NCBI RefSeq assembly: GCF_014137855.1
Contig: NZ_JACGWT010000002.1
Location: forward strand, 372,001-436,000
DNA length: 64,000 bases
DNA from: Microlunatus kandeliicorticis
GTDB taxonomy: Bacteria > Actinomycetota > Actinomycetes > Propionibacteriales > Propionibacteriaceae
Direction: 5' to 3'
In this document: positions 27,208 to 34,836 of the stretch, one piece after another
How the letters are laid out: each line of letters opens with the position of its first letter
Numbering within the stretch: position 1 is the first letter of the stretch
Position numbers and translations under genes: made by a program
The notes under the pieces: model-generated
The model's input: only the letters and a program-made list of their open reading frames with translations
Databases searched by the model: none
What the model was told of the DNA's origin: nothing

Positions 27208-28269
27208 TCAGTCCAGAGCGATCTCGCGGCCGGCGTCGGCCGAGGCGTAGATCCCGTCGAGGATCTTCTGCACCTCGACACCGTGCCAGGCCGGCGCGAT
27301 GTTCTCGCGCTCGCCGCGGCAGGCGGCCACGAACCAGTTGATCTCGGTGTCGAACCCGTCGACCCCGTCGAACGTGCCCGACCGGATCTGCGGCGTCATG
27401 TTGACCACCGTGTCGAGCACCTCGGTGGCGATCTGCAGCTCCGGTTCGAGCTGTGCGCCACCACGGTCGCCGTAGACCGAGACGTTGAGACCCTCGCTCG
27501 GGGTGTGCAGCGAGTAGGAGACGTCGACCATCAGCGAGGCGCCGTTCTCGAACCGGACCACCGCGTTGGCCATGTCCTCGACGTCGTTCTTGGCCGGGTC
27601 GTAGTCGGCCACCTTCCAGCGCGGCAGGCTGGTGATGTTCGACCGGTTGCCGAGCCGCTCGTAGGTGTTGCCGCTGACCGCGACCGCGCGCGGGCTGCCC
27701 ATCAGGTACCAGCACAGGTCGATCACGTGCACGCCGACGTCGATCAGCGGACCGCCACCGGAGATCGACTTGTCGGCGAACCAGCCGCCGGGGTTGCCGA
27801 CCCGGCGGATCGCGGAGGCCTTGGCGTAGTAGATGTCACCGAGTCGTCCCTCGTCGATGAAGGACTTGAGCACCCGGCAGTTGGTGGAGAACCGTCGGAC
27901 GAAGCCGACCGAGACCACTCGGTCGCTCTTCTCCGCCGCCTCCTGGACGGTGCGGGCCTCGGCGTAGGTGCGGGCCAGCGGCTTCTCGACCAGGACGTGC
28001 TTGCCGGCCTCGACCGCGGCGACCGCGAGCTCGGCGTGGGTGTTGTTCCAGGTGCAGATGCTCACCGCGTCGATGTCGGCGTCGGCGAGCAGCTCGGCCG
28101 GGCTGCCGTAGGAGCGGCTGGCGCCCCACTGCGCGGCCACGGTGGCCGCCCGGTCGGCGTTGACGTCGGCGATCGCGGCGATCTCGACGTCCGGGTTCTT
28201 GGCGTACGACGTGAGGTGGAGGTTGGCGATCGCGCCACCGCCGATTACGCCGATCCTCAGTGCGGACAT
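27208..28269 (-). CDS. Gfo/Idh/MocA-family sugar oxidoreductase
   Basis: A 353-residue NAD(P)-dependent dehydrogenase. The Rossmann motif GVIGGGAIANLH is at residues 7-18, the signature EKPLA with its conserved Lys near residue 95, and a downstream DVGVHVIDLCWYLMG with the catalytic-type Asp and His. Members oxidise inositols, sugars or amino-sugars. It is the third gene of an operon with a ROK regulator and a TIM-barrel isomerase, 64 bp after the latter, which together suggest catabolism of a cyclitol or keto-sugar. Confidence 0.92.
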   Translation of the reverse strand: MSALRIGVIGGGAIANLHLTSYAKNPDVEIAAIADVNADRAATVAAQWGASRSYGSPAELLADADIDAVSICTWNNTHAELAVAAVEAGKHVLVEKPLARTYAEARTVQEAAEKSDRVVSVGFVRRFSTNCRVLKSFIDEGRLGDIYYAKASAIRRVGNPGGWFADKSISGGGPLIDVGVHVIDLCWYLMGSPRAVAVSGNTYERLGNRSNITSLPRWKVADYDPAKNDVEDMANAVVRFENGASLMVDVSYSLHTPSEGLNVSVYGDRGGAQLEPELQIATEVLDTVVNMTPQIRSGTFDGVDGFDTEINWFVAACRGERENIAPAWHGVEVQKILDGIYASADAGREIALD

Positions 28270-28333
28270 GGGTGTGGGTTACTCCGTTGCTCTCGGGTGT
28301 CTCTGGTGGGGAAGGTGTTGGGGGTCTGCGGCG

Positions 28334-29218
28334 TCAGGCGGCGAGCAGCCGGCGGGCGTTGGCCAGCCCGCGGGTGGCCCCGACGAAGCAGTCCTCGTGG
28401 CCCTCGAACTCGATCGACACGTACTCGTCGTAGCCCGACTGCTTGATCGCGGCGATCACGCCCGGGAGGTCGATGTCGCCCTCGCCGACGATCGCGCCGC
28501 GGAGCGCCTTGCCGCCCCGGCTGGAGAACCAGCCGTCGGGTGCGGAGAAGCCGGCCGGCCGGATGTAGAAGTCCTTGAGGTGGACGATCATCGCGTAGGG
28601 CAGGTTGGCCGGCACCGCGCTGGTCGGGTCCTCGTCGACGCAGACGAAGTTGCCGATGTCCAGCGTGGTCTTGAAGTTGTCCCGGTCGACCGCGTGCACG
28701 ATCCGGCGGACCCGGTCGCTGCTCTGCACGAAGAAGCCGTGGTTCTCCAGGCTGGTGGTGATGCCCTTGGTCGCGGCGTACTCGGCGATCTGGCGGCAGG
28801 CGTCGACGATGATCGGGAACTTCTGCTCGAAGACCACGCTGTCGTCGCCCGGCACCACGCCGTGCGGGACGACGTCGTGCCGCATGGTCCGGATGCCGAG
28901 GGCCTCGGCCAGGTCGACGAGCTTCTTGACCCGCTCGATCTCGGCGGTCTTCTCCGCGGCGTCCTCGTGGGACAGGTCCGCGCCGACGGCCAGGTTGGAG
29001 AGCGGGACGCCGCGCTTCTCGGCGTGCGACCGGACGGTCTCGACGAAGGACGGATCGCTCTCCTCGTTGGGGATCGGGGCGTCCGCACCGCGGTAGATCG
29101 CCGCCAGCTCGAGGTGCTCGCCCTCGCTGTCGGCCACCCAGTCGATGACGTCGGTCAGGCTCATCTCGCCGGTCGCGACGCGCTGGTGGAAGGTATAGGA
29201 GCTGAAACCGAGTTTCAT
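28334..29218 (-). CDS. Sugar phosphate isomerase/epimerase (TIM barrel)
   Basis: A 294-residue protein of the xylose-isomerase-like TIM-barrel family (AP endonuclease 2 fold). Metal-ligand-like positions are visible: ITTSLENHGF (Glu), TTLDIGNF (Asp), IVHLKDFY (His, Asp) and YVSIEFEGHED (Glu). Such enzymes act on inosose, keto-sugars or hydroxypyruvate. The ATG overlaps the ROK stop (ATGA), so it is coupled to the regulator. The frame continues upstream into the ROK gene, but homology starts at MKLGFSSYTFHQ. Confidence 0.9.
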   Translation of the reverse strand: MKLGFSSYTFHQRVATGEMSLTDVIDWVADSEGEHLELAAIYRGADAPIPNEESDPSFVETVRSHAEKRGVPLSNLAVGADLSHEDAAEKTAEIERVKKLVDLAEALGIRTMRHDVVPHGVVPGDDSVVFEQKFPIIVDACRQIAEYAATKGITTSLENHGFFVQSSDRVRRIVHAVDRDNFKTTLDIGNFVCVDEDPTSAVPANLPYAMIVHLKDFYIRPAGFSAPDGWFSSRGGKALRGAIVGEGDIDLPGVIAAIKQSGYDEYVSIEFEGHEDCFVGATRGLANARRLLAA

Positions 29219-30423
29219 GGTGCGCTCTTTCCGGTTCGGTCGGCGGTCTCCGCGGCCCGCCAGGTGGTCCAGGTCGACCAGGGCGCGGAGACCCCGGGAA
29301 TCGAGGTGATCGGGGTGGACGCCGCCTCGAAGGCGAGTCCGAGGGTGCCGAGCACGGTGGCGTCGGCGCCCAGCCGCGAGCCGACCACCTCGGGTCGGTC
29401 CGCGGTGGTCAGCAGCCCGTGCACCGCGCGGCGCAGCGGGTCGAGCAGGGTGGCTCCGGCGCGGGACAGGCCACCGCCCACCACCAGCAGCTCGGGGTCG
29501 ACCGCGAGCAGCACGGTGGCCACCGTCGGGGCGATCTCGGCGCAGAAGGCCTCGATCTCCTCGGCCGCGTCGCGCCGGCCCGCGGCCGCGGCGACGAACA
29601 CCTCGCGGCCGGTCCGGCCGGTCCGCCAGCGCAGCTGACCGCGGCGGCTGGTGCTGGTCCAGCGCATCCCGCGCAGGGTGCCCAGTTCGCCGGCGACCCG
29701 GTGGTGGCCCTGCCGAATCCGGCCGTCGATCACGAGCGCCAGCGAGATCCGGTGCCCGAGCTGGAGATAGGCGATGTCGGTGGTCGGCGCGGTCGTGATC
29801 CCGGCCCGCTGCTCGGCCAGCGCCGCCGCCTTGATGTCGTTCTCGAGCGCGACCGGGCACCGCCAGCCGCGGGCCAGGGTCTGGCCGGGGCGGTCGCCCG
29901 ACCAGTCGGGCACGGCGAGGCTGTGGGTGATCCGCTCGTCGGGGCCGATCACGCCGGGGACGGCGAGCGCGGCGCCGCGCAGCTCGCGCAGGGTGTGTCC
30001 GGTGGCGCGGACGGCCTCGCCGACCACGGTCCGCACCAGGGCGATCCGGGCGCCGGGGGCCGGTTCGCCGGCGGGCAGCCGGTCGGTGCGCTCGGCCAGC
30101 ACCCGGCCGGCCAGGTCGGTCACCACCGCCCGGACCCGGGAGGCGCCGACGTCGATCCCCGCGACGCAGCCGGCGTCGGCGGCCAGCTCGACCGTCCGGG
30201 CCGGCCGGCCACCGCGGGCCCCGGTCGGGGTGGCCTCCGTGAGCCGGACCACGCCGGCGGTCACCAGGTCGCCCACCACCGCGTCGACGGTCGGGCGCGA
30301 CAGGCCCGTCCGGGTGGCCAGCACCGCCACGGTCGACCCGGTCGGCTCCGGGCGCAACGCCTCGACCACCGCGGCGGTGTTCCGGCGGCGGACCGCGGCA
30401 CCCCCGGGCTCGAGGTAACGCAA
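29215..30423 (-). CDS. ROK-family transcriptional regulator
   Basis: A regulator of about 402 residues: N-terminal winged helix (STVAVLATRTGLSRPTVDAVVGDLVTAGVVRL) and a ROK sugar-kinase-like domain with GIDVGASRVRAVVTDLAG and ENDIKAAALAEQ. The usual ROK zinc motif (CxCGxxGC) is missing; the region reads GELGTLRGMRWTSTSRRGQLRW, with no Cys. Start codon is uncertain: TTG 30423 is the nearest usual start, while an ATT at 30438 has CATACT six bases upstream, the leaderless pattern seen elsewhere here. It probably represses its own operon in response to a sugar. Confidence 0.85.
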   Translation of the reverse strand: MRYLEPGGAAVRRRNTAAVVEALRPEPTGSTVAVLATRTGLSRPTVDAVVGDLVTAGVVRLTEATPTGARGGRPARTVELAADAGCVAGIDVGASRVRAVVTDLAGRVLAERTDRLPAGEPAPGARIALVRTVVGEAVRATGHTLRELRGAALAVPGVIGPDERITHSLAVPDWSGDRPGQTLARGWRCPVALENDIKAAALAEQRAGITTAPTTDIAYLQLGHRISLALVIDGRIRQGHHRVAGELGTLRGMRWTSTSRRGQLRWRTGRTGREVFVAAAAGRRDAAEEIEAFCAEIAPTVATVLLAVDPELLVVGGGLSRAGATLLDPLRRAVHGLLTTADRPEVVGSRLGADATVLGTLGLAFEAASTPITSIPGVSAPWSTWTTWRAAETADRTGKSAP

Positions 30424-30491
30424 GGTGGTTTCGTTAATGGGTTGAGTATGTCCTACCGGTCCCGGACCTCCCGCACCCACCCCCGGCCGGG

Positions 30492-30824
30492 TCAGTCGAT
30501 CTGCATCTCGCCCATCTTCGACCAGCCCTCGACGCCCTCGAGCGACTGGCTGACGATGTCCGGGGTCTTGGCCAGGTACTGCGGGAGCCCGTGCTCGGGG
30601 TCGGTGGCGTCCTTGAAGTGCTGGCTGTTGACGTGGTCGCCGGCCGCTCCGTCCCGGAAGGCCTCGACCAGCACGTAGACGCCCTCCTCCTCGAGGCTCT
30701 TCGACCACTCGAACCAGAGGTTGCCCGGCTCGGCCCGGGTGGCCTCGGTGAAGGCCCGGACCTTCTCCGGGAAGGTGTCGGCGTACTCGGGCTTGGCGGT
30801 GAACTTGACGACGATGAAGATCAT
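30492..30824 (-). CDS. Antibiotic biosynthesis monooxygenase-domain protein
   Basis: A 110-residue ABM-fold protein (ferredoxin-like, dimeric), starting MIFIVVKFTAKPEYADTF. Conserved parts include RAEPGNLWFEWSKS and YVLVEAFRDGAAGDHVNSQHF. Members include quinol monooxygenases (YgiN) and small-molecule scavengers. Its ATG is 57 bp downstream of a GTCTCA-N3-TGAGAC palindrome identical in its arms to the one before the amidohydrolase operon, so it is probably co-regulated with that operon. Confidence 0.87.
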   Translation of the reverse strand: MIFIVVKFTAKPEYADTFPEKVRAFTEATRAEPGNLWFEWSKSLEEEGVYVLVEAFRDGAAGDHVNSQHFKDATDPEHGLPQYLAKTPDIVSQSLEGVEGWSKMGEMQID

Positions 30825-30880
30825 GGCGGCATCCTGCTGCCTCGTCCTGACGGCGTCCATGCCCGGGGTGGGGTCGGTGC

Positions 30881-30895
30881 GTCTCAGTCTGAGAC
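30881..30895. promoter_or_regulatory. Palindromic operator GTCTCA-N3-TGAGAC, site 1
   Basis: A perfect inverted repeat with spacer GTC, overlapping the last four codons of the GAF-Fis regulator gene and preceding the ABM gene by 57 bp. The same arms occur at 31790-31804. It is a likely binding site of the regulator. Confidence 0.7.
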
Positions 30896-31699
30896 GGGGT
30901 GCAGCCCGACCCGGATCCGGTACCGCCGGATCCGGCGGTAGACCGTCGCCCGGGAGATGCCGAGCTCGGCGGCCGCCTCGGCAGGCCCTCCGCAGCGGCT
31001 CAGCGCCTCGACGATGGCCTCCCGCTCCAGCCGCTCGAGCGCGCTGAGCCGGGGCCCGCGACGCTCGGTGATCGCCTCCAGGAAGTCGTCCTTCTGCTCG
31101 GCCGTGGACGACGCGACCCGGGTCAGCTGGGCCTCGATGTTCATCGCGGTCTGCGCGGCCAGCGCCATCAGCAGGTCGGGGCGCCTTTCCGACCAAGTGG
31201 TCAGGCTCAGCGCCCCGGCCACCGTGCCGGTGACGGGGTCGTGCACAGGGGACCCTGCACAGGTGAAGCCCGCCAGGTCGGCGCTGTAGTGCTCGACGCC
31301 GGCGACCAGCGACGGCCGGTCGTCGGTGAGTGCGATCCCGAACCCGTTGGTCCCCACGGCGTCCTCGGAGTACGTCGACCCGGGGGCCAGCGAGACCGCG
31401 TCGAGCGCGCGGAGGATGTCGCGGTCGTGGCAGAGCCGAATGGCCACCAGCCCGTCCCGGTCGCTGAGCATGATGCTCAGCGGTTCGTCCGGCAGGCTGG
31501 CCTGCAGCACGCGGAGCACTGGGAGCGCGGCGTGGGCGAGAGAGGTGTCGTCGTCGAAATCGGCGGTGTGGGGGACCTCGAGTCCGGCCGGGGGCAGCCC
31601 CCGCCGTTCGCAACGCTCCCAGGAGGCGAGGATCTGCGGTCGCTGGGCGAGCGGCAACGCGGTCTCAGCTCGCGCCGTCGCGGCCAGGTCGGCGTCCAT
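30884..31699 (-). CDS. GAF-Fis regulator, MimR/AcoR-like without AAA+ domain
   Basis: A 271-residue regulator. The N-terminus (LPLAQRPQILASWERCERRGLPP) and the GAF domain (about 65-205, with EDAVGTNGFGIAL, HYSADLAGFTCAGSPVHDP and GALSLT) match AcoR/MimR-type activators. The central sigma-54-interacting AAA+ domain is absent; a Fis-type HTH follows directly (LEREAIVEALSRCGGPAEAAAELGISRATVYRRIRRYRI). ATG 31699 lies behind GGGGGTGAGC; a GTG six bases upstream is possible. Palindromes flank the gene on both sides, in front of the ABM gene and the amidohydrolase operon. In mycobacterial mim loci a related protein senses acetone or similar compounds. Confidence 0.85.
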   Translation of the reverse strand: MDADLAATARAETALPLAQRPQILASWERCERRGLPPAGLEVPHTADFDDDTSLAHAALPVLRVLQASLPDEPLSIMLSDRDGLVAIRLCHDRDILRALDAVSLAPGSTYSEDAVGTNGFGIALTDDRPSLVAGVEHYSADLAGFTCAGSPVHDPVTGTVAGALSLTTWSERRPDLLMALAAQTAMNIEAQLTRVASSTAEQKDDFLEAITERRGPRLSALERLEREAIVEALSRCGGPAEAAAELGISRATVYRRIRRYRIRVGLHPVSD

Positions 31700-31789
31700 G
31701 CTCACCCCCGTCAGGTCCCGAATCTAGCGGTTGGCGGGGCGGGGGTGAAGAGGCCGTGCTCGGGAGCGGGATCGGGTTCCGGGTCGGGC

Positions 31790-31804
31790 GTCTCACTTTG
31801 AGAC
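31790..31804. promoter_or_regulatory. Palindromic operator GTCTCA-N3-TGAGAC, site 2
   Basis: A perfect inverted repeat with spacer CTT, about 88 bp upstream of the amidohydrolase start and 91 bp from the divergent regulator start. Placement fits activation of the operon and control of the regulator. It is the second copy after 30881-30895. Confidence 0.75.
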
Positions 31805-31891
31805 ACCCCGAACCCTTGGCAGCGACCGGTCGCGAACGCTCCAATACTGGGGTCGGCCAGAGGTCGGACCCAGCGGCAAAGGAGCCCGGAC

Positions 31892-32938
31892 GTGTACAGC
31901 AAGGACGGCGAGAACTACTTCATCGTGGACGCCCACATCGCGTTGTGGGACGCCCGCCCGGAGAACCAGCGCAACATCCACGGCAAGCAGTTCATCGACT
32001 GCTTCTACGACTACCACCGCAACCTCAGCCCGGCCTCCGAGCTGTGGACCTACGAGGAGTACCTCTACCAGGGCGGCGAGCGCCTGATGCGGGACATCTT
32101 CGAGAACGGTCCGGTCGACCACGCGATCTTCCAGCCGGCCAAGCTCGGCGAGTTCTACAACCACGACTTCGGCCAGACCGAGGAGGCCTGGGCGCTGGTC
32201 CAGAACAACCCGGGCAAGCTCACCTACAACCACTGGTGGGACCCGCGCGACGGCGAGGCCGGGCTGGCCCAGCTGCGACGCGACGCCGAGCGGTTCGGAC
32301 TCAAGGGCGTCAAGCTCTACACCGCCGCCTGGTACGGCGACTCACGCGGCTGGAAGCTCAGCGACCCGTGGTCGCGCCGCTACCTCGACGCCTGCGTCGA
32401 ACTCGGGATCAAGAACATCCACATCCACAAGGGTCCGACCATCCGCCCGCTCGACCGCGACGCCTTCGACGTCGCCGACGTGGACGCCGTGGCCAGCGAC
32501 TACACCGACCTGAACTTCGTGGTCGAGCACGTGGGTCTGCCGCGGCTGGAGGATTTCTGCTGGATCGCCACCCAGGAGCCGAACGTCTACGGCGGCCTCG
32601 CGGTGGCCATCCCGTTCATGCACACCCGCCCGCGCTACTTCGCCCAGATCATCGGTGAGCTGCTCTACTGGATCGGCGAGGACCGCATCCTGTTCAGCAG
32701 CGACTACGCGCTCTGGACGCCGAAGTGGCTGGTCGAGACCTTCGTGGACTTCCAGATCCCCGAGGACATGCAGCCGGAGTACTCCGCCATCACCACCCAG
32801 CAGCGCAAGAAGATCCTCGGTCTCAACGCCGCCGCGCTCTACGACATCCCGGTGCCCGCGGAGCTCCGGATCACGGCGGAGCCGACCGAGGAGCCGGTGG
32901 CGTCGCCGGCCCCCGAGCACGCGGTCCCGGTGGCCTGA
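31892..32938 (+). CDS. Amidohydrolase-2 family protein of a mim/prm-like cluster
   Basis: A 348-residue TIM-barrel hydrolase of the amidohydrolase-related family. Seen: FIVDAHIALWD, IKNIHIHKG, LNFVVEHVGLP and ILFSSDYALW, i.e. His and Asp positions of a metal centre. The first motif is HIA rather than the usual HxH, so one metal ligand looks lost (Ala17). As I recall them, its closest known relatives are encoded in propane/phenol binuclear-iron monooxygenase loci, upstream of a DUF59 gene and an alcohol dehydrogenase gene, exactly the order here. A ribosome site (AAAGGAG) precedes GTG 31892. Confidence 0.87.
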   Translation: MYSKDGENYFIVDAHIALWDARPENQRNIHGKQFIDCFYDYHRNLSPASELWTYEEYLYQGGERLMRDIFENGPVDHAIFQPAKLGEFYNHDFGQTEEAWALVQNNPGKLTYNHWWDPRDGEAGLAQLRRDAERFGLKGVKLYTAAWYGDSRGWKLSDPWSRRYLDACVELGIKNIHIHKGPTIRPLDRDAFDVADVDAVASDYTDLNFVVEHVGLPRLEDFCWIATQEPNVYGGLAVAIPFMHTRPRYFAQIIGELLYWIGEDRILFSSDYALWTPKWLVETFVDFQIPEDMQPEYSAITTQQRKKILGLNAAALYDIPVPAELRITAEPTEEPVASPAPEHAVPVA

Positions 32939-33717
32939 TGACGGCGGTCCTCAGCGAGCAGCGGACCGACCTGCGCGAGCGGGTCTGGGACGCGTTGCAC
33001 ACCGTCATCGATCCCGAGCTCGACGAGCCCGTCACCGACCTCGGCTTCGTCACCGAGTGCACGGTGACCGTGACCGGCGCGACCCGGATCCGACTGCGTC
33101 TGCCCACCGCGTTCTGCTCGCCCAACTTCGCCTACCTGATGGTCTCCGACGCCCACGACGCCGTGCTCGCGCTGCCCGGCGTCACCGCGCTGACCCTGAC
33201 GCTCGGCGACCACTCCGACTCGGACAAGATCAACGCCGGGATCGCCGCACACCTCGGCTTCGCCGACGCCTTCCCCGCCGAGACCACCACCGAGCTGCAC
33301 GAGCTGAGGGCGGTGTTCCGCCGCAAGGCCCACCAGGCCTTCGTCGAGCGCGTCTGCACGGCCCTGGTCCGCGAGCACGGCCGGAGCGCCGACGATTTGC
33401 CGGCCCTGCGCCTGGAGGACCTGCCGCCCGGCCGGTTGCGGGACGGACTCCTGCGGCGGCGTACCGACCTCGGGCTGAGTGTCGACCCGTCCGACCCGGT
33501 CTGCGTCGATGAGCAGGGTGTCCGGTGGCCGCCCGAGGAGCTGCCCCGGCGGCTGCGGTTCGCCCGTGCGGTGCGGGTCTCAATCGACGGCAACGCCCAC
33601 TTCTGTCGAGGCCTCCTCGCCACCCGCTACCCGGGGGCCGAGACCGTGCAGGCCGAACGGCACCACGAGCTGCTCTCGCTCACCCCGATCCCCGATCACG
33701 ACAGGAGTGCGTCATGA
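32938..33717 (+). CDS. DUF59/MIP18-family Fe-S assembly-like protein
   Basis: A 259-residue protein with an N-terminal DUF59 domain (residues about 8-105: WDALHTVIDPELDEPVTDLGFVTE and the Cys-containing LPTAFCSPNFAYLM), related to PaaD/SufT factors for Fe-S or metal-centre assembly. The remaining 150 residues are specific to this cluster type and include C-terminal Cys residues (DPVCVDEQ, AHFCRGLL). The ATG overlaps the amidohydrolase stop and the stop overlaps the dehydrogenase start, both by ATGA. In complete loci it would help mature the iron monooxygenase. Confidence 0.87.
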   Translation: MTAVLSEQRTDLRERVWDALHTVIDPELDEPVTDLGFVTECTVTVTGATRIRLRLPTAFCSPNFAYLMVSDAHDAVLALPGVTALTLTLGDHSDSDKINAGIAAHLGFADAFPAETTTELHELRAVFRRKAHQAFVERVCTALVREHGRSADDLPALRLEDLPPGRLRDGLLRRRTDLGLSVDPSDPVCVDEQGVRWPPEELPRRLRFARAVRVSIDGNAHFCRGLLATRYPGAETVQAERHHELLSLTPIPDHDRSAS

Positions 33718-34745
33718 AGGTCGTCCGCGTCGTCGGCTACCACCAGGACCTGCAGCTCGACGAGGCGCCCGAGCCGGAGATCACCTCGGCGATGGACGTG
33801 ATCGTCAAGATCGGCGCGGCCGGCGTGTGCCGTACCGACCTGCACATCCTGGAGGGCCAGTGGGCCGAGAAGTCGCAGGTGCAGCTGCCCTACACGATCG
33901 GCCACGAGAACGCGGGCTGGGTGCATGCGGTCGGTGACGGCGTGACCCACGTCGCCGTCGGGGACAAGGTGATCATGCACCCGCTGATCACCTGCGGGCT
34001 CTGCCCGGCCTGCCGGTTCGGGGACGACGTGCACTGCGAGAACAACGAGTTCCCCGGGATCGACACCGACGGCGGGTACGCCGAGTACCTGAAGACGGGC
34101 GCGCGCAGCGTGATCAAACTCGACGACTCGCTCGAGCCGGTCGACGTCGCCGCGCTGGCCGACGCCGGGCTGACCGCCTACCACGCGGTGGCCAAGGCGG
34201 CCCGCGTGCTGCGTCCGGGCAACGTCGTCGTCATGATCGGCGCCGGCGGGTTGGGGCACATCGGTATCCAGGTGATGAAGGCGATCAGCGGCGCCACCCT
34301 GTTGGTCACTGACCGCAACCCGGCGGCGCTCGCGTTGGCCGAGGAGCTCGGTGCCGACCACACGGTCCAGTCCGACGAGCAGGGCAGTCACATCGCCCGG
34401 ATCCTCGAGTTGACCGGCGGCAAGGGTGCCGAGGCGGTGATCGACTTCGTCGCCGAGGGCGGCTCGACCGCTCAGGGCGTCCAGTTCCTCCGCCGGAGCG
34501 GGAACTACTACGTGGTCGGCTACGGCGAGAACCTCGACATCCCGACCATCGACATCATCAGCTCCGAGATCAACTTCATCGGCAACCTGGTTGGCTCGTA
34601 CAACGACCTCGCCGAGCTGATGGTGCTGGCAGCTCAGGGCAAGGTGAAGCTGCACACCACCGTCTACAAGCTGGACGAGTTCCAGCAGGCCATCGACGAC
34701 CTGTCGGCCGGCCAGGTGCGCGGCCGGGCGATCCTGGTCCCCTGA
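33714..34745 (+). CDS. Zinc-dependent alcohol dehydrogenase
   Basis: A 343-residue medium-chain dehydrogenase. Catalytic zinc ligands Cys39 (AGVCRTDLH) and His64-Glu65 (GHENAGWV) are present; the structural zinc loop ITCGLCPACRFGDDVHC has the four cysteines in sequence. The NAD(P) site reads GAGGLGHIG near 178. It would oxidise the alcohol made by an upstream oxygenase, such as a secondary alcohol from propane or a related substrate. ACAGGAG precedes the ATG, which overlaps the DUF59 stop. A terminator follows, so the operon ends without groEL. Confidence 0.93.
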   Translation: MKVVRVVGYHQDLQLDEAPEPEITSAMDVIVKIGAAGVCRTDLHILEGQWAEKSQVQLPYTIGHENAGWVHAVGDGVTHVAVGDKVIMHPLITCGLCPACRFGDDVHCENNEFPGIDTDGGYAEYLKTGARSVIKLDDSLEPVDVAALADAGLTAYHAVAKAARVLRPGNVVVMIGAGGLGHIGIQVMKAISGATLLVTDRNPAALALAEELGADHTVQSDEQGSHIARILELTGGKGAEAVIDFVAEGGSTAQGVQFLRRSGNYYVVGYGENLDIPTIDIISSEINFIGNLVGSYNDLAELMVLAAQGKVKLHTTVYKLDEFQQAIDDLSAGQVRGRAILVP

Positions 34746-34751
34746 ACGCGC

Positions 34752-34783
34752 GGGGCGCGTCTCCAGCACCGGGGACGCGCCCC
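34752..34783 (+). terminator. Terminator of the amidohydrolase operon
   Basis: GGGGCGCGTCTCC pairs with GGGGACGCGCCCC with one mismatch around a 6-nt loop, 7 bp after the dehydrogenase stop. It marks the end of the three-gene operon. Confidence 0.8.
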
Positions 34784-34836
34784 GAGCCCTTCGGTGCCCG
34801 GGTGCGCATGGTCTTGGGTCTGCGGCCGGATCCCGC

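Follow-up and report, generated by a model that had tools for sequence, protein, structure and literature searches.

Group 5 soluble diiron monooxygenases are encoded by the mimABCD and prmABCD genes of Mycobacterium, Rhodococcus and Gordonia TY-5, and the published prm loci conserve a hydrolase, a DUF59 protein, an alcohol dehydrogenase (ADH) and GroEL, to which several strains add a Fis regulator and an ABM protein (PMC4428276). The amidohydrolase and DUF59 genes of these propane/acetone monooxygenase operons have long been noted without a function in the literature we read. In Mycobacterium sp. AT1, the amidohydrolase-DUF59-ADH trio occupies a chromosomal site apart from the propane monooxygenase (PMC6849523). 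Here we describe a locus in a 64,000-nucleotide stretch of Microlunatus kandeliicorticis DNA (contig NZ_JACGWT010000002.1, positions 372,001 to 436,000; hereafter the window), in which genes for an amidohydrolase-fold protein (AMH), a DUF59 protein and a Zn-dependent ADH lie next to those for a GAF-Fis regulator and an ABM protein (Table 1), with no oxygenase.

A first-pass annotation of this DNA had likened the locus to mim/prm loci, and the likeness is real, as published prm loci hold the same accessory genes. It lies in the amidohydrolase-DUF59-ADH order and extends to the Fis-type GAF regulator, the operator GTCTCA-N3-TGAGAC and, in many mim/prm loci, the ABM gene. Unlike these loci, the window lacks the monooxygenase subunits, the reductase, the coupling protein and MimG; its operator stands before the amidohydrolase gene, whereas that of mim/prm loci stands before mimA; the regulators fall into separate groups; and the amidohydrolase motif is HxH in mim but HxA in the window. 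Unlike Mycobacterium sp. AT1, which has the oxygenase, the genome of the window has none. Our results suggest that the locus is probably a complete, stand-alone, self-regulated catabolic module, a sister of the mim/prm accessory gene set rather than a recent remnant of it. The underlying observation is real, and its status as a conserved module that stands alone and shares its operator with mim loci is well supported; the stand-alone class and its HxA switch are apparently undescribed, and the parts are ordinary.

Oxygenase content, operator and distribution

The source genome (4.30 Mb, 98.6% complete) was searched for the genes that accompany the trio in mim/prm loci. Pfam Phenol_Hydrox (PF02332) gave no match in the locus or in the whole genome, the identical search, as a positive control, matching in 20 of 296 phylum genomes, and a whole-genome search with MimA gave no match even at an E value of 10. 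A second groEL, which the first-pass annotation had proposed to look for, does exist, but both copies are housekeeping types (one groups with Kribbella, one with Rhodococcus copies; 83–84% identity) and fall outside the MimG clades, so that no MimG-type GroEL was found in the genome. A second amidohydrolase copy was searched for in the genome and not found. The missing oxygenase subunits and GroEL noticed at the locus are thus borne out, and for the diiron oxygenase and MimG the absence extends to the whole genome.

The operator occurs exactly twice in the window, and with at most one mismatch these two sites, both in the locus, were the only ones in the 4.3 Mb genome (reversed control pattern, 0). 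Across loci, operators were counted after removal of duplicate loci, with at most one mismatch and within 200 bp 5′ of a gene. Where a locus has the regulator and no mim genes ahead of AMH, the operator precedes AMH in 79/87 cases; in mim loci it precedes mimA in 33/38. It precedes none of the 36 AMH genes behind mimCD and none of the 23 lacking the regulator, and is absent before the ADH and DUF59 genes of the surveyed loci. Within 2.85 Mb of sequence, 123 of 144 operator sites sit in AMH or mimA promoters, with 3 sites for the reversed control in about the same sequence. The distance to the AMH start codon is usually 70–120 bp, and copy 2 of the window takes this class position. These results indicate that one operator type, present at both stand-alone AMH and mimA promoters, is common to the two kinds of locus. 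Our literature search found no description of the operator sequence, though all or part of it may already be published; Furuya et al. reportedly devoted a J Bacteriol 2011 paper to the mim regulator MimR.

Copy 1 lies before the ABM gene of the window and thereby ties ABM to the same control as the trio, in line with the earlier suggestion that the trio may act together with this protein. This position is found in the window only (1/36 ABM genes in regulator loci). ABM homologues occur in 36/85 stand-alone and 16/37 mim loci (not deduplicated), and elsewhere the gene is usually 3′ of ADH or GroEL.

The DUF59 protein was found in 30 of the 296 phylum genomes; AMH adjoins its gene in 29/29 other loci and ADH does so in nearly all, and the trio arrangement is therefore not due to chance. 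We surveyed the neighbours of AMH in the best 80 of 511 confirmed relatives from 84,980 one-per-species genomes, some of these loci ending at contig ends. Seventy-eight of these 80 loci lie outside a mim operon, mostly with the regulator divergent from AMH, DUF59 and ADH in this order; the exceptions are L114 and L177, where AMH stands behind mimD, so the closest homologs lie mostly, but not always, outside mim/prm loci. The regulator-amidohydrolase-DUF59-ADH order without an oxygenase was found in many actinobacteria (stand-alone hosts among the best 80: Nocardioides, Pseudonocardia, Amycolatopsis, Geodermatophilus, Modestobacter, Arthrobacter, Streptomyces, Rhodococcus, Kribbella and more), and the window fits this class, with its divergent GAF-Fis regulator, AMH, DUF59 and ADH in order, and no oxygenase. 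In an evenly drawn class sample of 395 genomes, the DUF59 protein was present in 28: 16 were stand-alone and had the regulator, the operator or both, 6 were mim loci, and about 7 had neither, these last mostly in the order ADH-AMH-DUF59. The stand-alone form is thus the commoner (16 versus 6), which favours the independent module that the first-pass annotation had offered as an option.

Both kinds of locus can share a genome, kilobases apart (L171, L125, L176, G862). Among 201 Mycobacteriaceae-type genomes (the family of G038), AMH was found in 43 and MimA in 28; all 28 MimA genomes lie within the 43, and 15 AMH genomes are without MimA. Several loci of the distant phylum family f19 hold the trio with no oxygenase beside it, proteobacterial plasmids carry mim loci with AMH-DUF59, and oxygenase-free AMH-DUF59(-ADH) sets occur on plasmids of Thermomicrobium, Peribacillus and two haloarchaea. 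Plasmid pA of Peribacillus sp. R9-11 (L321) combines a sigma-54-type Fis regulator, an AMH with DxHxA, a DUF59 protein and a DJ-1/PfpI protein, neither oxygenase nor ADH being annotated beside AMH-DUF59; the haloarchaeal plasmids (L325, L326) carry AMH-DUF59 with a divergent ADH and no oxygenase annotated nearby.

Around the stand-alone loci, no conserved further neighbour was found beyond ABM, apart from sporadic ones named from the look of their sequences only (aldehyde-dehydrogenase-like in 9, transketolase-like in 6, a small membrane protein in 6). In Kribbella and Rhodococcus (L141, L161, L157, L160, L174, L188), the stand-alone module is closely followed by a convergent groEL of housekeeping type. 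It was rejected as a MimG, since it groups with the copies of the window's genome and apart from the MimG clades; the proximity is probably a chance neighbourhood within each genus.

Gene arrangement and regulator

All genes named in the first-pass annotation (GAF-Fis regulator, amidohydrolase, DUF59, Zn-ADH and ABM) were located by Pfam where it had placed them (Table 1). Its ATGA overlaps between the enzyme genes hold for the DUF59/ADH junction (4 bases, 33714–33717), whereas the AMH/DUF59 junction is TGATG, a 1-base overlap; its terminator corresponds to a hairpin that has no T-tract. Scans of the locus for sigma-70 promoters and T-tract terminators gave no match. In AMH and ADH, the first two codon positions vary less than the third, a pattern consistent with purifying selection.

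Table 1 Features of the locus, with positions in the window.
Feature	Position	Strand	Remarks
ABM-domain protein, 110 aa	30492..30824	-	Pfam ABM, E 3.9e-20; one relative annotated 'putative quinol monooxygenase'
Operator copy 1, GTCTCAGTCTGAGAC	30881..30895		Exact match; 57 bp 5′ of ABM start; overlaps regulator stop codon
GAF-Fis (HTH_8) transcriptional regulator, 273 aa	30884..31705	-	Pfam GAF and HTH_8; without AAA-like middle domain
Operator copy 2, GTCTCACTTTGAGAC	31790..31804		Divergent regulator/amidohydrolase promoter region; 87 bp 5′ of amidohydrolase start
Amidohydrolase-fold protein (AMH), 348 aa	31892..32938	+	Amidohydro_2 PF04909, E 2e-48; GTG start; DxHxA replaces DxHxH
DUF59 (FeS_assembly_P) protein, 259 aa	32938..33717	+	Pfam; domain plus ~150 further residues; helical C-terminal domain
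Zn-dependent alcohol dehydrogenase (ADH), 343 aa	33714..34745	+	Pfam; complete structural-zinc cysteines and catalytic-zinc ligands
GC-rich hairpin closing the operon	34751..34784		Perfect 14-bp stem, −37 kcal/mol, z −3.6; without T-tract

The regulator of the window keeps its GAF and helix-turn-helix (HTH) domains in one intact frame, and alignment with its relatives shows that the whole AAA-like middle domain is gone. Stand-alone regulators are mostly 460–540 aa and mim regulators mostly 560–640 aa long, both with the AAA-like domain. The regulator tree separates a stand-alone from a mim group, with few exceptions; the window's regulator groups with the stand-alone ones (Shimodaira–Hasegawa-like approximate likelihood ratio test, SH-aLRT, 90), a weak placement given its long branch. 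Two further observations concern this control. In Amycolatopsis suaedae, a second operator copy (L118:8378-8392) lies past the 3′ end of the regulator, with an SDR-like gene on its far side, and the regulon of this species may include a further gene beyond the regulator. Three Streptomyces stand-alone modules (L123, L165, L178) have a different regulator, of mim length, and no recognisable operator, perhaps through regulator replacement.

Beside the module, the minus-strand genes at 27208–30450 encode a Gfo/Idh/MocA oxidoreductase, a xylose-isomerase-like TIM barrel and a ROK repressor, a sugar or inositol-type cluster apparently unrelated to the module; on the other flank is a GH15-like protein that also looks unrelated.

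Proteins of the module and their possible function

The AMH is a predicted TIM barrel (mean predicted local distance difference test score, pLDDT, 79), whose nearest fold matches are uncharacterised amidohydrolases and aromatic-acid decarboxylases, with dinuclear oxygenases of the superfamily slightly lower; a PDB sequence search found no relative. With the PF04909 decarboxylases/hydrolases (LigW, 2,6- and 2,3-dihydroxybenzoate decarboxylase, ACMSD) it shares the predicted barrel (Z ~19–21) and conserved His/Asp residues, but only 12–18% identity, and it has DxHxA. Position 17 of the motif D13-x-H15-x-17 (D13-A-H15-I-A17 in the window) is Ala in 90/90 regulator-linked stand-alone loci, and His in 32/36 AMHs behind mimD and in 19/23 regulator-free AMHs reaching that position. 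HxA is also found in Peribacillus, with a Fis regulator and no oxygenase; Thermomicrobium, the haloarchaea and the proteobacterial mim loci have HxH. H177, H179, H213, C223, E256 and D271 are invariant in 158/158 AMHs, which suggests a working metal site.

The DUF59 protein (model mean pLDDT 89) consists of an N-terminal DUF59 fold and a helical domain, with C60, H92, D94, H221 and C223 invariant in the alignment. It has the fold and the invariant Cys of SufT, PaaD and CIAO2B, but differs from them in falling below the NCBIfam family cut-offs and in its extra conserved helical C-terminal domain, which carries the invariant H221 and C223. In the ADH, C39, H64, D150 and C94/97/100/108 are invariant in 152/152 proteins. 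The NAD-dependent secondary ADHs Adh1 of Gordonia TY-5, likened here by family alone, and ADH-A of R. ruber belong to the same Zn-ADH family, with all zinc ligands. The best PDB relative, and nearest solved one, is 1h2b, ADH-A being further down the matches, and an activity on secondary alcohols would be a matter of family resemblance. In Geodermatophilus-type loci (L111, L119, L126, L127, L133, L136, L139 and others), the ADH is 59–60% and the adjoining AMH 76–80% identical to those of the window; here the ADH seems, by sequence comparison, to have been replaced inside an otherwise conserved operon.

In the mechanism we propose, the GAF domain would sense a small metabolite, and the Fis-type HTH would, as its conservation suggests, bind both copies of GTCTCA-N3-TGAGAC and thereby control the amidohydrolase-DUF59-ADH operon from one and the ABM gene from the other. 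Judging from its family, the ADH may use NAD(P)+ to oxidise a short-chain alcohol, probably a secondary one, yielding a carbonyl compound. The DUF59 protein, from its family and its invariant Cys/His residues, may handle a metal ion or cluster, most simply by loading the amidohydrolase. The latter would in turn convert this carbonyl compound, or a metabolite related to it, at a metal site from which one HxH histidine has been lost in the stand-alone class. By analogy, the likeliest role of the module would be an inducible pathway that oxidises a secondary alcohol or ketone of short chain length, with 2-propanol, acetone, acetol or a similar compound as the likely substrate, since mim loci carrying this operator function in propane and acetone metabolism. 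In an actinobacterium with a mim locus grown on 2-hydroxyisobutyric acid (2-HIBA), which is degraded via acetone, Adh1 amounted to 6.1% and the amidohydrolase to 3.2% of the proteome, and the mim cluster was also induced on acetone (PMC7176365).

Other assignments of the AMH and DUF59 protein were weighed against this mechanism. PF04909 contains dinuclear oxygenases (PMC10811679, PMC10401708), and the AMH might itself be an O2-activating metal enzyme, like AibH2, PtmU3 and SfbO, matured by the DUF59 protein; its model does match AibH1H2 (8ful) and TruffO (8sm8) among others, and a gene of metal-assembly type always adjoins it. We nevertheless consider this highly improbable, since decarboxylases and uncharacterised hydrolases are the best fold matches, with Z a few units above the oxygenases, and no Rieske or reductase gene is among the Pfam-scanned neighbours, whereas some 90% of genes like AibH2 lie next to one for a small Rieske protein (PMC10401708). 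The dinuclear site of amidohydrolase-related oxygenases has three His and three carboxylate ligands. In stand-alone AMHs the number of metal-binding His residues has gone down by one rather than up, the loss of the HxH His in the window being seen in the alignment. A second alternative is that the AMH and DUF59 protein are non-catalytic, serving as maturation factors or scaffold for the ADH in stand-alone modules and for the diiron enzyme in mim loci, with HxA as the mark of a pseudo-enzyme. The metal ligand is indeed lost in 90/90 stand-alone AMHs while the closest relatives of the window's AMH are still 76–82% identical, and DUF59 proteins elsewhere (PaaD, SufT, CIAO2) assist metal centres. 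The invariant AMH residues argue against it, however, and Zn-ADHs of this family are usually active without helper proteins. The amidohydrolase was, moreover, about as abundant as the enzymes in the proteome (PMC7176365), and we regard a non-catalytic role as unlikely. A bolder proposal, which we find rather doubtful but advance tentatively, is that AMH-DUF59 may form a new metal-dependent enzyme system acting on the ADH product, with its own metal loader and a remodelled HxA site, and may be the original, ancient part of mim/prm loci, joined later by the diiron monooxygenase; in many actinobacteria, as in some archaea and bacilli, it would operate without that oxygenase.

Origin of the stand-alone form and its meaning

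Several points weigh against a self-regulated catabolic module that is no recent remnant. The acetone/propanol guess is drawn by analogy solely from the mim loci and the shared operator, and our literature search found no paper on the stand-alone trio, nor a substrate, inducer or activity for one. The regulator of the window is divergent (46% identity at best) and, being also AAA-less, might be less active or respond differently. Finally, in L114, from a Friedmanniella metagenome-assembled genome that belongs to the genus group of the window, the window's AMH lineage is part of a mim locus and carries HxA.

The first-pass annotation called the locus hollowed out. On such a reading, mimABCD and mimG would have been lost, and the regulator, operator, trio and ABM kept, by the stand-alone class as a whole or, failing that, by the Microlunatus/Friedmanniella lineage of the window. 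As a recent local event this is unlikely and not supported, given the 78 non-mim loci among the best 80, although L114 keeps some likelihood for it in the window's lineage; a loss long ago is conceivable, either where the stand-alone class began or within Microlunatus/Friedmanniella. The operator lies at about equal distance from mimA and from stand-alone AMH, the Fis regulator and ABM are found in published prm loci too (PMC4428276), and amidohydrolases canonically carry HxH, which makes HxA the probable derived form. In trees, the AMHs of stand-alone loci sit next to those of mycobacterial mim loci. In the AMH-only tree the window is inside a stand-alone clade (55 stand-alone and 2 mim rows; SH-aLRT 94), and in the AMH+DUF59 tree the window and a relative from its genus are placed, with weak support (82/35), just outside a 56-row stand-alone clade and beside the mycobacterial mim clade. 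On the other hand, these trees have no secure root, the stand-alone regulators form a separate group, and the four genomes holding both loci fit duplication equally. Furthermore, haloarchaea, Thermomicrobium, Peribacillus and several f19 genomes have trios or AMH-DUF59 pairs with no oxygenase, which indicates that the trio is not dependent on mim. On balance, we find the hollowed-out origin possible but somewhat doubtful; the stand-alone class may have arisen by ancient loss from a mim locus, by duplication, or before mim. A split locus, with the oxygenase kept elsewhere in the genome under the same operator and served by the trio in trans, has precedents in Mycobacterium sp. AT1 (PMC6849523) and in genome G494, whose mim locus keeps a DUF59-like gene and no AMH or ADH, the sole AMH lying in a stand-alone module on another contig, with the operator at both. 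For the window its probability is close to nil, and for the assembled sequence it is refuted: the 98.6%-complete genome has no PF02332 or MimA protein, no third operator and no MimG.

If the locus is, as we think probable, a stand-alone catabolic module, it belongs to a natural experiment in which many organisms keep the regulator, operator and trio without an adjoining oxygenase, some of them without any in the genome; this points to the trio acting on the alcohol/ketone side. What the trio does can thus be tested in hosts that lack the oxygenase, such as Rhodococcus fascians or Arthrobacter, and exchanging a single residue, as in the HxH to HxA switch, would probe the amidohydrolase's role in each setting. 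The AAA-less regulator of the window is a natural test of whether the AAA-like domain matters, and the operator sequence provides a handle for finding the regulon in other genomes.

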